Positions 21,535 to 31,729 of a stretch of DNA of 64,000 bases are shown in pieces. The translations under genes were made by a program, and so were the position numbers. The first letter of the stretch is position 1, and every line of letters begins with the position of its first letter. The stretch lies in the NCBI GenBank assembly GCA_021785515.1, contig JAJYEX010000002.1, forward strand, positions 157,328-221,327, read 5' to 3'. Under the pieces are notes generated by a model, which did no database searches, was not told the origin of the DNA, and saw only the letters and a list, made by a program, of their open reading frames with translations. Origin of the DNA: Pseudomonadota bacterium. GTDB lineage: Bacteria; Pseudomonadota; Gammaproteobacteria; Acidiferrobacterales; UBA6901.

Positions 21535-22146
21535 TCAACCGAGCTTTGCCACAACGTCGGCGAGCGAATAGGCCGGTTGCGCACGCTGCACGATGTCGTG
21601 ACCAGCCAGGCGGCTGATGTTGCTTGTGGAAAACATGCCTATAATCCGGTGCGTCTCGGTGGCCAGGTCGAATATCGCGACAAGCGCATGCTGGCGGTGG
21701 AGCTCGCACAGGGTCTCAGCGATGTCTCCGACCGTCGCCATATTGACCCGGTTGGCATCCAGCACCTGGATATCGCACTGGGGTGTCATGATCGATCCGA
21801 CCGTCAGTTTGGCGCGCGGCAGCCGCGTCTGCTGTGCGGCCTTGATCGGCCGTTCTCCGGCGATATCTGTGGCGGTGACCAGGCCGATGATTTCGTCGAT
21901 GTCATTGACCACGAAAAGTAGCCGGACACCCGCAGTCTTCATCTTGCGCAGCGCAGCGTCGATCGTGGTATCCGGTTCTGTCGTCACTGGTGTGATTGAT
22001 GCAAAGTCAGTCATTACCGTGGTGGCCGGACTGTCGAGCCTGATGACGGCAACACCCCGGCTGCGTCGGCCGAGCGTGGATTGCGGCCGCAGCGTAACGG
22101 CTGGCAGTACTGAGAATGAGGGCAGTACGGAGAAAGACGGTTGCAT
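21535..22146 (-). CDS. tandem CBS-domain protein
   Basis: The 203-residue protein has two CBS motifs. The first (about residues 45-95) starts with VMTDFASITPVTTEPDTTI and includes RLLFVVNDIDEIIGLVT. The second (about 115-185) starts with SIMTPQCDIQVLDANRV and ends in IIGMFSTSNISRLAG. CBS pairs bind adenine nucleotides and regulate partner proteins; as a stand-alone protein its partner is unknown. AAGGAGG precedes the ATG at 22146; a longer frame to 22239 has no such site. A short repeat, SFSVLPSFSVLP, follows the start. Confidence 0.85.
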   Translation of the reverse strand: MQPSFSVLPSFSVLPAVTLRPQSTLGRRSRGVAVIRLDSPATTVMTDFASITPVTTEPDTTIDAALRKMKTAGVRLLFVVNDIDEIIGLVTATDIAGERPIKAAQQTRLPRAKLTVGSIMTPQCDIQVLDANRVNMATVGDIAETLCELHRQHALVAIFDLATETHRIIGMFSTSNISRLAGHDIVQRAQPAYSLADVVAKLG

Positions 22147-22239
22147 CGCAGACCTCCTTGGTTCAGTGGGTTCCGCCATCGCCGCAGCCGACGGCAGTTG
22201 CATGGGCAGAGCAGGTGAATGGCTGTGACGCTCCCCCAA

Positions 22240-22650
22240 CTAAGCAAGCGCCGTGCCAGCCGCTGCGATAGCCGATGTCAGTCTTAATGTGCCGGCTTTT
22301 CGCGGAATCCGGCAACCGGTCTCGAGTCGTGCGGGGCGATGGTTCACTGCTGTATGCGCCGCTGCGGTGCGTCCGGTTTCACCGCCGCACCAGTTTGAGA
22401 CCGGGTTGGCGGTTGAACCGGCTGGGTGGCGCCGCGCCTGCGGGCTCTCTTCCGGAGGTCCGGGTCCGGGTCGAAAGGCCCCGCGCACCTGTCTGCGAAG
22501 TGGCTGGATCGGGATGCAAGGTCACGGGGCCGCGGACGGCCAGACCGGAGGGATTCCAACCGGTAATCCGGTGCATGCCGCAATGGATTTGCGTTATGAC
22601 AGCGGGCTCTCTACGCTGCGTTTCGATCTGTGTCGGGAAATGATTGTCGA
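22240..22650. other. no supported gene
   Basis: About 400 bases between divergent genes. Overlapping frames on both strands have no family and no good start. Confidence 0.35.
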
Positions 22651-26045: not shown

Positions 26046-26921
26046 ATGGAAGAGATGTTCAGGTCTGCATTTGTCCGTGGTCTGATCGAAAATGTTGTGC
26101 TGCTGCCCGCGGCCGTCGTTGTCTTTTGTGGCTGGGGCCTGCTCCGTTTTACGCGCGCCGCCCCGGACCGCCGCGGAGCGCTCTGGGCTGCTGGACTGGC
26201 AGGCGGTTTCTTTGCCAGTTATGCAGTGACCTACCACGATTTTTCCGTTCCGCCGCGCACCGTTCTGTCGTGGCTGCCGTGGCTGGTTGTCGGGGCGGCG
26301 GTCGCGGTGGCGCTGGTGGCCCGCCGCGCCAACATGGTATGGATCGCCGGGGTGCGGCTGACGGCGGTGGCCGTCTCGGCCTATGTTCTTCTGCGGCCGC
26401 TTCTGCATCAGGAACCGTGGTCCACCGCCTTTATCTCATGGTTCGGGACCGCCGTTGTGTGGTTTGCACTGTGGTCAGCGCTGGCGCTGCCACATGTGGA
26501 CCAAAAAGCCGGAGGCGTGGCGCTGTGTGTGGTCGCTGCGGCGCTGGCGCTGGCGGCGCCACTCTCGGGCAGTATTGAAATCGGCCGATTCGGCGGGGCA
26601 CTCGCCACTGCCCTCGGAGTCAGTCTCGTCTTTCCGGTTTTCGTGAGAGACCGGCGCTGGGATTCACCCACCGGCGATGTTCCCGTGATGATACTGGGGG
26701 CGTTGATGGTTGATCTGCGGTTCTACGCCGGCGCGCCCTGGGTGGTGATGGCGTGGCTGACGGCGGCTCTGGTGACCGCCAGCCTGGCAATCGGATGGAT
26801 ACGGTCGCGCCGCAATACTGCGCAGTGGGGCATCATCGTTGCGGGCGTGGCCGCGCTGCTGCCTGCTGCGCTGGCATGTTGGACAGCATGGCGCGTTTAT
26901 CAACAGAGTGGTGGCTATTGA
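26046..26921 (+). CDS. polytopic membrane protein of unknown function
   Basis: The 291-residue protein has about eight to nine hydrophobic segments and few charged residues between them. I see no transporter or enzyme motif and do not recognise the family. GGGAGA precedes the ATG at 26046; a GTG at 26013 is less likely. It is the last gene of the marR-CDGSH-yceI run and lies 63 bases after yceI, with a stem-loop in between. A partner of the periplasmic YceI protein is a reasonable guess, no more. Confidence 0.6.
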   Translation: MEEMFRSAFVRGLIENVVLLPAAVVVFCGWGLLRFTRAAPDRRGALWAAGLAGGFFASYAVTYHDFSVPPRTVLSWLPWLVVGAAVAVALVARRANMVWIAGVRLTAVAVSAYVLLRPLLHQEPWSTAFISWFGTAVVWFALWSALALPHVDQKAGGVALCVVAAALALAAPLSGSIEIGRFGGALATALGVSLVFPVFVRDRRWDSPTGDVPVMILGALMVDLRFYAGAPWVVMAWLTAALVTASLAIGWIRSRRNTAQWGIIVAGVAALLPAALACWTAWRVYQQSGGY

Positions 26922-26996
26922 ACGGCTAGCACCGGGGTAGTAGTTGGGCTGGCAGTTCCCCTTGGGCGCTGTCTCTCGGCCCGTTTATGGCTCAAT

Positions 26997-27014
26997 TGTC
27001 ATGACGAAATGACA
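26997..27014 (+). promoter_or_regulatory. putative activator site upstream of a sigma-54 promoter
   Basis: TGTCAT-N6-ATGACA is a perfect 6-base inverted repeat centred about 100 bases before the predicted transcription start, the usual distance for a sigma-54 enhancer-binding activator. Confidence 0.5.
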
Positions 27015-27077
27015 GATCGGCAGTTTCTGTCGAGTTAATCAATACGTATTATCCCGTATTATCAATTAGATAGCATT

Positions 27078-27093
27078 TGGCATGGGGTTTGCT
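27078..27093 (+). promoter_or_regulatory. sigma-54 promoter of the sulfur operon
   Basis: TGGCATGGGGTTTGCT differs at one base from the consensus TGGCACG-N4-TTGCW, and the GG and GC are ten bases apart as required. Transcription should begin near 27104. No sigma-54 activator gene is in the window. Confidence 0.65.
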
Positions 27094-27429
27094 TAGACCA
27101 TTTTAATTACGCCGTTCCCCTGTCAGGTTGCGGCGTTGATTCATATAAAAATACCTAATAACTAACCGTCGGGAGCAGGCTGGGCGCAGCGATCCGGTTG
27201 AATGCAGGCGTTCCGCTGGTGTGCTTGTCGTATGATGAAGACGGTGAACTAGAACTGCGGGCGGATTTCTAATTTACAGCGGCTCGATACAAGTTTGATC
27301 CGCAGTCCGGCCAGAATTGTCGAATGGAAATCTCTGGTAGCCGGAGCTGTATGGAACAAGTGTGCTCGGGTTCGCGCCCGGGGTATGAGGTTCGACGTAT
27401 GCCGACCTGCCTCATCAGGAGAAGGAGCA

Positions 27430-27822
27430 ATGGCACAAGAAAAAATCAGTATTGTCCTGATTTCGGAACACCGCGAGGATCTTCAGATGGCGGGAATGAT
27501 CGCATCGGTCGGGGCGGTCAGCGGGAATGACGTGTCGGTTCTCGTTTCGATGAATGCGCTGAAATACTTTCTAAAAGGTGCAAGCGACAAGGCGCCGTTT
27601 GCCGGGCAGATGGGAGAGATACTGGAGCGCAAGAAGGCGCCATCGTTCAGGACTCTCTTCGAGCAGGCGGCGGAACTGGGCGAAGCCCGGATTCATCCAT
27701 GCTCCATGGCCATGGACATTCTCGGTGTCGAATGGCGAGACCTCGAGACTTTCATGAAGGAACCCTTGGGATTGACGAAATTTCTGGGTGACGCCAAGGG
27801 CGGCCAGGTCTGGTCCTTTTAG
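27430..27822 (+). CDS. DsrE-family sulfur-relay protein
   Basis: The 130-residue cytoplasmic protein has the DsrE/DsrF-like fold, with KISIVLISEHREDLQMAGMI at the start and VSVLVSMNALKYFLKG after it. Cys91 in HPCSMAMDILG is in the position of the conserved cysteine that carries sulfur as a persulfide in this family. GGAGAAGGAG precedes the ATG; upstream in-frame starts lack it. A TusA homologue follows within 26 bases, and DsrE-TusA pairs exchange sulfane sulfur in sulfur oxidisers. The donor is likely the SQR-like flavoprotein encoded two genes downstream. Confidence 0.85.
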   Translation: MAQEKISIVLISEHREDLQMAGMIASVGAVSGNDVSVLVSMNALKYFLKGASDKAPFAGQMGEILERKKAPSFRTLFEQAAELGEARIHPCSMAMDILGVEWRDLETFMKEPLGLTKFLGDAKGGQVWSF

Positions 27823-27847
27823 AGAATTTACAGCACTGAGGACGGCA

Positions 27848-28081
27848 ATGATGGCGAAAAAGAAGCAGATTGATGCGCGCGGTAGCTTTTGTCCTGGACC
27901 CCTGATGGAGCTCATTGCCGGCATGAAGGCGGCTGATGTGGGTGATGAACTGGAAGTTCTGTCCACGGACAAGGGTTCGGCCGCGGACATCCCGGAATGG
28001 ATCAAGAAGGTCGGTCACGAGCTGCTCTCGGCGACCGAGGAGAACGGTGTCTGGCACATTACGGTGCGTAAGGCGAAATAA
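27848..28081 (+). CDS. TusA-family sulfur carrier
   Basis: The 77-residue protein has the defining CPGP motif at Cys15, in SFCPGPLMELIAGMKAAD, followed by the usual beta-alpha layout. TusA proteins hand sulfur as a persulfide between enzymes for tRNA thiolation or for sulfur oxidation. The operon with DsrE and an SQR-like flavoprotein points to the second role. It carries a Lys-rich start (MMAKKKQ) and ends in VWHITVRKAK. GAGG lies about 10 bases before the ATG. Confidence 0.88.
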   Translation: MMAKKKQIDARGSFCPGPLMELIAGMKAADVGDELEVLSTDKGSAADIPEWIKKVGHELLSATEENGVWHITVRKAK

Positions 28082-28153
28082 AGTACCTGCTGTGACAGCT
28101 GGGTAATCAAGAATCTTAATGAAGAGCATCTTTATAAGGGCTAGGAGGCTGCC

Positions 28154-29287
28154 ATGAGGATAGTGATCGTAGGCGGAGGCATGGGTGGAACCATTTTGGG
28201 CAACAATCTTGCTCGCCGGTTGCACCATGAGCTGAAGACCGGAAAGGTCCGCATCACCATGCTGTCGGCGTCAGAGAAGCACATGTACCAGCCAGGTCTG
28301 CTGTATGTGGCCGTCGGAAGCATGATGCCTGATGAGCTTTATCGCGATCAGGCGGGCCTGCTTGAGCCGGGGATCGGTTTTCATGTGGATCCAGTCGAGA
28401 ACTTCATGCTGGACAAGCGCCAGGTCAAAACCAAGAGCGGCGCGGTCCATGACTACGATGTGCTCGTGATTGCCACCGGCTCGCGTGCGGTCATGCAGAC
28501 CATCCCTGGCCTTGCGGAGAACGCCGAAACCTTTTACACGGAAGAGTCGGCGGTGAAGATGCTGAAGAGGCTGCGTGAGTTCCAGGGTGGCCGGGTCGTG
28601 ATTACCGTTGGTGTACCGCACAAATGTCCCATGGCGCCGCTCGAGATCACATTCATGCTGCACGACTTTTTCAAGGAACGTGGCATGCGCGATAAGGTAC
28701 AGCTGCACTACACCTACCCCATCGGCCGTGTTCACAGTCTTGAGAACGTTGCAAAGTGGGCTGCGCCGGAATTCGACCGGCTGGGTATCACCTATGAAAC
28801 GCTGTTCAACATGAAGGAAGTCGACGGCAAGAACAAGGTGCTGAAGAGCGAGGAGGGCGGGTCGACTAACTACGATCTGCTCATCGCGATTCCTGCCCAC
28901 AAGGGTATGGAGGTGGTGGAGAAGAACGGACTCGGCCAGAACGGCTGGATTCCCACCAACCGCACGCGGCTGAACATGGAGGGGCAGGAAAACGTCTTTG
29001 TGCTGGGTGATACGACCAACCTGCCGATCAGCAAAGCCGGTTCTACGGCACATTTCGAGGCGGAGACCCTCGGCGAGAACATCGCCGCCATGGTGAAGGT
29101 GGGCTCGGCCGTGCGCGATTACGACGGCAAGGTGTTCTGCTTCATTGAGGCCGGAAAGGACCGGGCAACCTACGCGATGTTCAACTATACGACACCACCT
29201 GATCCCAAGGCGCCCACGCGCGCGGTACACTGGTTCAAGGTGGCCTACAACAAGTTGTACTGGGCGTCAGCCCGCGGACTGTTGTAA
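28154..29287 (+). CDS. sulfide:quinone oxidoreductase-like flavoprotein
   Basis: The 377-residue protein has the FAD-binding motif VIVGGGMGGT (about 5-13), the second motif VLVIATGSRA and NVFVLGDTTNLP. These mark the SQR/flavocytochrome c sulfide dehydrogenase flavoprotein family. Cys158 (HKCPMAPLE) and Cys329 (VFCFIEAG) match the pair that forms the redox disulfide in SQR; the third cysteine near residue 128 found in some SQRs is missing. No signal peptide is seen, so it should act at the cytoplasmic membrane face. It follows TusA by 72 bases, and TAGGAGG precedes the start. Substrate may be sulfide or protein-bound sulfane sulfur. Confidence 0.82.
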   Translation: MRIVIVGGGMGGTILGNNLARRLHHELKTGKVRITMLSASEKHMYQPGLLYVAVGSMMPDELYRDQAGLLEPGIGFHVDPVENFMLDKRQVKTKSGAVHDYDVLVIATGSRAVMQTIPGLAENAETFYTEESAVKMLKRLREFQGGRVVITVGVPHKCPMAPLEITFMLHDFFKERGMRDKVQLHYTYPIGRVHSLENVAKWAAPEFDRLGITYETLFNMKEVDGKNKVLKSEEGGSTNYDLLIAIPAHKGMEVVEKNGLGQNGWIPTNRTRLNMEGQENVFVLGDTTNLPISKAGSTAHFEAETLGENIAAMVKVGSAVRDYDGKVFCFIEAGKDRATYAMFNYTTPPDPKAPTRAVHWFKVAYNKLYWASARGLL

Positions 29288-29299
29288 TCGGGGGTCCCC

Positions 29300-30094
29300 A
29301 TGGAAACACATGCGGAGTCGGTGTCGAAAAACGGGAGCGAGCTCGATCGCGTCACGCAGGCAGCCAAGGACTCGCTGACTGACGATATGGTTGCGCGCCT
29401 TGCGGCGACTGCGACCGGCGCCATGGATCTCGTGGATCGCGTCAACCGGGCGGGTTTGTCGGATGCTGTTCCGGTACTTGCGGCGCTGGTACACAATGGG
29501 GATCTCGAGCGCATCGCCCATCTGGCGCGCCTCGTCGGATCTGCCCAGGATGCGCTGACGGACGACGTGGTGGGACGCCTGTCGCAGACCGTTTGCAGCG
29601 GGCTCGACCTGATGGATCAGGTGGCGCGCGCGGGTTTCGAGCGGGCGATCCCGGTGCTGTCGCGGCTCGTTGCCGACGGCGATCTCGATCGCATCGTGCA
29701 GCTCGCGAGACTTGTGAGTTCAGCCCAGGATGCAGTGACCGACGACATGGTGGGGCGGCTGGCGGAGACCGTCGGCGAAGGGCTGTCTCTGCTCGACCGT
29801 CTCAACCGGGCGGGCGCGGGTCATCTGATCGGCGTACTGGAGCAAATGAACACCAGCGGGACGCTCGGGCGTATCGCTGGCGTCCTCCCGGATCTCATGG
29901 GACGGCTGGAGCGCCTGAACACCATGCTGGAATCGATTGAGCGGTCGGCGGCGGCGTTGGCCCGGGAAGCGCCGGCCTCAGGCGGCATCGGCGGTGCATG
30001 GCGGCTGCTGGGCAACAGCGAAAACCAGGAAGTGATGCGTTTTCTGTTCGGGATCGGAAGGGAACTGCGGAGCACCCTGGTCCAGAACAAATAG
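29300..30094 (+). CDS. DUF1641 protein with internal repeats
   Basis: The 264-residue protein has three related blocks of about 70 residues. Each contains DDMVxRL...DLVDRVNRAG followed by VPVLAALVHNGDLERIxxLARLVGSAQDALT or a variant of it. The C-terminal part matches DUF1641, often encoded beside SQR-like flavoproteins and formate dehydrogenase-related genes. It has no membrane segment and one cysteine, so it is probably a soluble structural or docking partner. It starts 12 bases after the flavoprotein stop, so the two are surely co-transcribed. Confidence 0.78.
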   Translation: METHAESVSKNGSELDRVTQAAKDSLTDDMVARLAATATGAMDLVDRVNRAGLSDAVPVLAALVHNGDLERIAHLARLVGSAQDALTDDVVGRLSQTVCSGLDLMDQVARAGFERAIPVLSRLVADGDLDRIVQLARLVSSAQDAVTDDMVGRLAETVGEGLSLLDRLNRAGAGHLIGVLEQMNTSGTLGRIAGVLPDLMGRLERLNTMLESIERSAAALAREAPASGGIGGAWRLLGNSENQEVMRFLFGIGRELRSTLVQNK

Positions 30095-30425
30095 CACGAC
30101 CGCCGTTTACCGACCCGGGCATATCCGGGCGGCTGGATGCGCGGTGCGGCAGGTTTGGAGACGGGCGATATCTGGGTGTCGCCCGGCATGCGGGCGCCGG
30201 TTCTGTTGTTACCCGAAGCAGGCCATTTCGGTTATTCTTTAAAGGTGTAACCTGAAGATTAACCTGAGGCGCTGAGGAACTGTGGCCAGATTTCCGGAAG
30301 CCATAACTGCATCCGTGAACACGCTGTTCTTGCCGGAGCAGCCGCCGTTGGCCGCACCGGTCCGGCTGTTCCCCTTGCCGTGCCGGCGAAAGCCGGCGGT
30401 TGTCTGCTGAAGGCGGACGCGCGGG
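30095..30425. other. intergenic region
   Basis: No gene recognised. A direct repeat TAACCTGA occurs near 30246-30266 and may belong to the promoter region of the GGDEF gene. Confidence 0.35.
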
Positions 30426-31553
30426 ATGGCCTCGCCAGGCGACAAGGAACTCGCTGATCTGCAGCGCAGTTTTTCACAGTCACGCCGTCATCTGGAAGCT
30501 CAGGTTCGGCAAAATGAGCGTATCTGGGGCGGATTCCGTCAGATAGAGATCCAGCTGATCGGAGCGCAGTCACTGGGTGAGCTGGTCGATACGCTGGTTA
30601 CGCGGATTCCGGAGATGTTTCCGGCGGTCGATTGCGTCAGCCTGGCGTGCCTGGACGAGGAATACGAATTGTCGCGCCTGATGGCGACCTTTTCGAACCG
30701 TCAGACTGCACGCTTTTTCATTCCCGCTGATCGCGCATGGCTGGAAGGGCTGGTGTCTCCATGGGGCAAACCCCAGCTCGGACGCTGTGACGAGCAGCTG
30801 CAGGCCCGTATATTTGCCGCCTGCGGTCTGCGCGTCGGTTCGTGTGCAGTCGCTCCGCTCACGGTGCATGGAGGACTCATCGGCTGCCTCAATCAGGGGA
30901 GCCAGGATGCCGGTCATTTCAGCGCCGACTCGGCTACCGACCTGCTCGGACACCTGGCCGCGGTGACGGCCATGTGTATCGACAATGTGGTCAATCGTGA
31001 GCGGCTCAAGCGCGACGGGCTCACTGATGCGCTCACCGGTGTGGCTAACCGGCGGTTCTTTGAGCGGCGCCTGCGCGAGGAACTGAGCCTGAGGGAGCGG
31101 CGTGGCAACTCCCTTGCGCTATTGCTGGCGGATTTGGACCACTTCAAGGATCTGAATGATCGCTATGGACACCAGCTGGGGGATGAGGTGTTGCAGCAGG
31201 TCGCGCTGGCCCTCAGCCAAGGTTTGCGGGTGAGCGATGTGCTGGTCCGCTATGGCGGGGAAGAGTTTGCGTTGCTGCTGCCGGATACCAGTGTCGACAC
31301 CGCGATTGAGATTGCACAACGTCTGCGCACCCAGGTCGCCAGTCTGGCGATCAACGGTCCGCATGCTGAGGCGGTGGCGGTGACGGCGTCGATCGGTGTG
31401 GCTTGTCTTGCCCCGGGAACAGGTCCGGAATCCAAACCTGGGGGCGGTGCCGGTATGTGGTTGTTGCGCCAGGCCGATGAGGCGCTTTACCGGGCAAAGG
31501 CGGCAGGGCGCAACCAGGTCATGGTTGCCAGACAGGCTGTAGCGGGTCGATGA
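30426..31553 (+). CDS. diguanylate cyclase with GAF-like DUF484 domain
   Basis: The 375-residue protein has an N-terminal coiled region, a GAF/DUF484-like sensory domain in about residues 40-190, and a C-terminal GGDEF domain. The active site reads GGEEF, with RVSD five residues upstream forming the inhibitory I-site (RxxD). It should make cyclic di-GMP from two GTP and be product-inhibited. No membrane segment is predicted. The PilZ-like protein 1.1 kb downstream on the same strand is a candidate effector. The ligand of the sensory domain is unknown. Confidence 0.9.
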   Translation: MASPGDKELADLQRSFSQSRRHLEAQVRQNERIWGGFRQIEIQLIGAQSLGELVDTLVTRIPEMFPAVDCVSLACLDEEYELSRLMATFSNRQTARFFIPADRAWLEGLVSPWGKPQLGRCDEQLQARIFAACGLRVGSCAVAPLTVHGGLIGCLNQGSQDAGHFSADSATDLLGHLAAVTAMCIDNVVNRERLKRDGLTDALTGVANRRFFERRLREELSLRERRGNSLALLLADLDHFKDLNDRYGHQLGDEVLQQVALALSQGLRVSDVLVRYGGEEFALLLPDTSVDTAIEIAQRLRTQVASLAINGPHAEAVAVTASIGVACLAPGTGPESKPGGGAGMWLLRQADEALYRAKAAGRNQVMVARQAVAGR

Positions 31554-31729
31554 CGGCATTGCCGTGATCATCCTAAGGGCTTGCATTCAGCCGCTGATCC
31601 GTTTTCGGGAAAAGGCGCAAAGACACGCGTGAATAAAAACCATTCATTTTTTTGAAAAACTGAAAAAACACGTAATGAAATGATTTGTAATGACAAAAAT
31701 ATGCGGTTGAGCCCAACTACGAACAGTTC

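Follow-up and report, generated by a model that had tools for sequence, protein, structure and literature searches.

What controls the sulfur operon of this gammaproteobacterial contig, and do the palindrome and the promoter-like element in front of it form a real switch? The window, by which we mean the whole stretch of 64,000 nucleotides that was analysed, carries a perfect TGTCAT-N6-ATGACA repeat (TGTCATGACGAAATGACA) at 26997-27014. After a gap of 63 nt it is followed by TGGCATGGGGTTTGCT at 27078-27093, which has the GG-N10-GC (-24/-12) element and one mismatch to TGGCACG-N4-TTGCW, the sigma-54 consensus. The centre of the palindrome is 86 nt from the -12 GC and about 98 nt 5' of the predicted start near 27104. 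The original prediction had described a sigma-54 element one base off consensus with the right spacing, and a perfect repeat about 100 bases before the expected start, and the measured positions bear out both. RpoN is encoded in the genome, with Sigma54_DBD over cut-off on contig C11 in the genome profile search. The features, all on the forward strand, are the following.

26997..27014, +, upstream activator palindrome TGTCAT-N6-ATGACA, proposed FisR site; one of two exact genome copies
27060..27072, +, AT-rich block TATCAATTAGATA, directly 5' of the promoter and kept in congeners
27078..27093, +, predicted sigma-54 promoter (-24/-12) TGGCATGGGGTTTGCT; 12 of 16 columns invariant in four species
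27104..27429, +, predicted 5' leader of about 326 nt; congeners have a DUF3034 gene there
27430..27822, +, dsrE-like gene; Pfam DrsE_2 over cut-off
27848..28081, +, tusA-like sulfur carrier gene; Pfam TusA over cut-off
28154..29287, +, SQR-like flavoprotein gene; Pfam Pyr_redox_2 over cut-off
29300..30094, +, fourth conserved operon gene, after the SQR-like gene in most relative loci

The AT-rich block has one mismatch to the IHF consensus. The best NCBIfam model for the SQR-like protein is type III SQR, at a score below cut-off (312.9 of 525 bits), and the fourth gene is without any family over cut-off in the Pfam and NCBIfam profile searches. A homology search found no second SQR-type gene in this genome. 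Cysteine is always present at DsrE C91 (95/95 rows), TusA C15 (99/99) and, in the SQR-like protein, C158 (101/101) and C329 (100/100), where the rows are those reaching the position, this sequence included, with five duplicate loci and SQR rows of less than 50% identity omitted. The genome also has two dsrA-type matches (contigs C11 and C18) and two soxB-type matches (C11 and C22) over cut-off, and by this gene content the organism is a sulfur oxidiser.

The simplest alternative is that an accidental palindrome lies near an accidental promoter match. Within the window, sigma-54 promoter sites with up to two mismatches number 15 where 14.2 are expected from shuffles, and palindromes with up to two mismatches number 2 where 1.79 are expected. 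The promoter match alone is therefore weak evidence, at chance level. The exact palindrome, unlike the promoter alone, exceeds chance, with two copies in the 3,053,093-base (3.05 Mb) genome, where a first-order model of the window predicts 0.13. When up to two mismatches are allowed there are 53 sites genome-wide against 29 for the reversed pattern, and the matches listed, which are ordered by mismatches, contain no one-mismatch site. Across 60 genomes the exact palindrome occurs at 15 sites, compared with 3 for the reversed pattern; 11 of the 15 adjoin a fisR, dsrE or SQR-type gene and four have none within 1.5 kb. A combined pattern of TGTCA-N8-TGACA, 50-80 nt and GGC-N8-TGC is found at 11 places in the 60 genomes and its reversed control at 0. 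Nine of these places are at fisR, dsrE or SQR-type genes, the remaining two being G040:C286 and G003:C77. With the spacing widened to 81-111 nt there are 4 places against 1 for the control, and none in this genome. The rarity of the exact site, the 11 places against 0 for the control, and the association with fisR and the conservation in congeners described below rule out a chance match, which we regard as having a negligible probability.

Two further sequences were observed away from the operon. A zero-mismatch sigma-54 consensus, TGGCACGGCGCTTGCT, occurs on the minus strand of the window at 22243-22258, just 5' of the minus-strand open frame 21535-22239. Another palindrome, TGTCACCAGGTGGTGACA, occurs amid repeats of the same half-site at G000:C7:3023 (L197), G000:C22:87644 (L199) and G004:C47:14335 (L192), where it overlaps open frames beginning MSIAAMNWAWGL; these repeats are perhaps a mobile element.

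The second exact palindrome suggests which protein may act on the first. It is at C1:87671-87688, on a different contig from the operon, and 39 nt separate it from the ATG at 87728 of a gene for a sigma-54 activator (15 nt if an upstream in-frame ATG is the start). The exact palindrome recurs in the genome only before this gene, which makes the gene's product the candidate for working the switch. The original prediction had proposed a genome search for activators beside the same site, and this search gives exactly one, which is FisR-like, among ten sigma-54 activators encoded in the genome at E 1e-30 (12 are over the profile cut-off, two of them reading like Clp ATPases). In a profile search the protein has PAS_4, Sigma54_activat, AAA lid and Fis-type HTH_8 domains, and no receiver family is among its 14 domain matches. 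It is FisR-like (PAS, AAA+, Fis HTH and three N-terminal cysteines) and not TspR-like, and its domain content rules out a TspR-like receiver regulator as the activator. The cysteines C51, C62 and C69 are present in all 34 aligned rows, comprising 26 relative FisR loci, seven from named contigs and one C. metallidurans megaplasmid homologue, although the seven named-contig rows were picked by a filter including two of the cysteines and the unfiltered count is 27/27. The sensor cysteines of Cupriavidus FisR are at positions 53, 64 and 71.

In this genome fisR is not linked to sulfide-oxidising genes, which counts against a FisR reading of the site, while in relatives it is linked to the dsrE-tusA-SQR-like genes or to an SQR-type gene. 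Its divergent neighbour here reads by eye like a TetR regulator. That the palindrome is kept before fisR despite such a neighbour suggests that FisR regulates its own gene. Also near fisR (L054:13067-17751) are molybdopterin oxidoreductase, iron-sulfur and DmsC-like genes, a set that presumably resembles SoeABC sulfite dehydrogenase.

In relatives, Acidithiobacillus included, a divergent fisR is often found beside the same operon. The 106 loci that we examined consist of 26 of 30 homology matches, the omitted four being merely 33-35% identical, and 80 kept of 109 from a second search. Seven without dsrE/tusA or without 400 nt upstream and six duplicates were dropped, leaving 93 unique loci, in which 1,000 nt were scanned for a sigma-54 site allowing one mismatch to a relaxed pattern in which GG and GC were fixed. 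Such a site is present in all 22 loci with an adjacent divergent fisR, as against 6 of the 71 without. Palindrome and promoter occur together in 15/22 and 1/71 respectively, the single case without an adjacent fisR being this window. Fisher p values are 3e-16 for the sigma-54 site and 3e-11 for the palindrome-promoter pair, but they overstate the association, since these are related loci: a single family accounts for 14 of the 22, and for 13 of the 15 that have the pair. No pair was found in 9,300 mononucleotide shuffles or on the opposite strand (0/93). The five loci that have the promoter only and no adjacent fisR include L048, with a same-strand FisR gene upstream, and L147, with a FisR gene 2.5 kb away. 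Seven of the 22 fisR-adjacent loci miss the strict palindrome, and this counts against the FisR reading; TGTCATGACA is found in four of them (L110 and Acidithiobacillus L144, L145 and L146), in tandem in L144 and L146, and is absent from L150, L120 and L039. The upstream region of L029, from the same-order relative G038, is the same as that of L102 (Acidiferrobacteraceae).

The palindrome, with up to two mismatches, also precedes fisR itself in 19 of 26 FisR loci (L056-L081), a set from which L082-L085 were excluded since they match in the AAA+/HTH part alone. The seven FisR loci without the site are L068 and L070, in which variant sites are visible by eye, L074 and L077-L080; these too count against the FisR reading, and five of the seven encode more divergent proteins. 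Upstream of the C. metallidurans megaplasmid homologue (42.6% identity) there are, by eye, TGCCA/TGGCA repeats and not TGTCAT. In G027 and G031 the palindrome is also found before a separate SQR-type gene, assigned as SQR by weak family match only, that is 63% identical to the SQR-type gene beside fisR in G002.

The congeners were scored as lacking the pair in the 93-locus survey, as in these species it falls outside the scanned 1,000 nt. The view that they are without the promoter was overturned: in G003 and G004 palindrome and promoter are about 1.3 kb before dsrE, 5' of an intervening gene, and G002 has the same arrangement with one mismatch in the palindrome. The intervening gene is a DUF3034 match in G004 (L178:3160-4014), has a corresponding place in G003 and G002, and is missing in the window; FisR would have this gene as an additional target in the congeners. 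The contig of G001 stops 466 nt before dsrE. When the four promoters are aligned, invariant columns make up 15 of 18 in the palindrome and 12 of 16 in the promoter. In the spacer only 8 of the first 44 columns are invariant, compared with 10 of the last 19, which hold the AT-rich block. Three findings thus support the proposal that a sigma-54 promoter and an activator site precede the sulfur operon: the genome-wide uniqueness of the exact palindrome, the fact that three congeners conserve it, and its association with a single sigma-54 activator. No exact palindrome is near the second SQR-like copies of G002, G003 and G004.

The missing DUF3034 gene raises the possibility that site and promoter are real but a relic, the loss of this gene having left a long leader and the operon now being transcribed mainly from another promoter. 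Such a history would fit a gene that three congeners have and this genome lacks, and a leader of about 326 nt. In the fisR-adjacent loci the sigma-54 sites are 43-159 nt before dsrE, a difference that counts against the FisR reading. The palindrome, however, is exact and the promoter intact, and neither a terminator-like site nor a sigma-70-like promoter was found in 26850-27900, and so we consider a relic unlikely. Two other explanations of the leader were rejected, namely a structured leader RNA (the fold z-score is -0.19, and 26500-31700 has no Rfam match at gathering scores) and a gene remnant in the form of a short open frame, part of which aligns with sequence 3' of the congeners' DUF3034 gene. 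A search for plasmid relatives of 26900-27440 gave no match.

G004, a 97% complete draft, keeps the promoter and the site and has no fisR match, which either counts against the FisR reading or reflects the draft. It also lends some weight to the idea that a different sigma-54 activator, one of the nine others in this genome, binds here, as do the number of activators encoded and the related palindrome of TspR, which indicates that similar half-sites are used by other activators (PMC6335251). Since the genome's second exact site precedes fisR, and a site is found before fisR in 19/26 FisR loci, we hold binding by another activator to be improbable.

We therefore return to FisR. As far as sequence can tell, the element is very probably a sigma-54 promoter together with the upstream site of a one-component activator of the FisR type, whose gene lies elsewhere in the genome and which drives the sulfur operon. 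When sulfane sulfur or sulfide rises, modification of the N-terminal cysteine cluster of FisR would free its AAA+ ring. From its site at TGTCAT-N6-ATGACA, FisR could then remodel the sigma-54 RNA polymerase at 27078-27093, and the dsrE, tusA, SQR-like and fourth genes would be switched on from a distance. Their products may oxidise sulfide and hand the sulfur along the carrier proteins DsrE and TusA. FisR would meet the same sequence before its own gene, so self-regulation is probable.

A further feature of this FisR (L054:9729-11075, contig C1) is its sigma-54-contact loop at residue 213, which is GAFTGC instead of GAFTGA. The last position of the loop in 34 FisR homologues is Cys in 29, Ala in 3, Ser in 1 and a gap in 1. 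In 39 activator loci, ten from this genome and 29 from relatives, the motif is readable in 38 and ends in Ala in all 37 that are non-FisR, with the qualification that the 29 from relatives are the best scorers, a choice biased towards the canonical form. Repression by the regulatory domain of NorR is directed at the sigma-54-contact surface (PMC2941729). The conservation of a thiol in this loop of a putative sulfur-sensing activator suggests direct gating. We tentatively speculate, while thinking it rather doubtful, that the FisR clade is a sulfane-sulfur switch of the dsrE-tusA-SQR-like operon in sulfur oxidisers, in which persulfidation of the GAFTGC cysteine, or a cross-link between it and the N-terminal cluster, would let sulfur chemistry directly gate the surface touching sigma-54. 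The loop cysteine could then be a new mode of control for sigma-54 activators. The term GAFTGC was not found among the literature matches listed.

Parts of this arrangement are known from other systems. The FisR protein of Cupriavidus pinatubonensis detects reactive sulfur by the cross-linking of three conserved cysteines, and the activator here has the same kind of three-cysteine pattern (PMC9774590). In A. baumannii, FisR switches on a sulfide-oxidation operon that is divergent to its own gene and has a predicted sigma-54 promoter, and in many of the relatives studied here fisR is likewise divergent to its target; the A. baumannii protein is without the cysteines, which counts against cysteine sensing as a universal property of FisR (PMC7315123). 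Like these two, the activator here would be a one-component sigma-54 activator of sulfide-oxidising genes. In contrast to known FisR, its proposed target is dsrE-tusA-SQR-like and not sqr/pdo, the regulator is unlinked in this genome, and a recurring palindrome is defined; its loop is GAFTGC, whereas that of the C. metallidurans homologue is GAFTGA. The original prediction had drawn a parallel with sigma-54 control of sox genes in an acidophile. As an analogy this parallel stands, as TspR of Acidithiobacillus caldus binds TGTCCCAAATGGGACA (UAS) before the sox genes of the sox-II cluster and TspS/TspR thus provide sigma-54 control of sulfur genes via a TGTC...GACA palindrome (PMC6335251), but it does not extend to the protein, since the activator here matches a PAS family and no receiver family. 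The receiver-bearing sigma-54 activators of Acidithiobacillia have been sorted into nine groups in a paper that does not contain the word FisR (PMC12194929). FisR control of this operon or of this DNA site does not appear in the titles or abstract openings among the open-licence literature matches listed. Sigma-54 control through a similar palindrome (TspR) and FisR control of sqr/pdo are already known, and the target operon, the DNA site and the unlinked arrangement are the additions made here. With them, a sulfur-trafficking operon of many proteobacterial sulfur and iron oxidisers would gain a named regulator and DNA site, and the role of FisR would widen from genes of sulfide detoxification to the lithotrophic handling of sulfur. 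TspS/TspR are a two-component system beside sox, while the candidate described here is a PAS one-component activator with a different operon.
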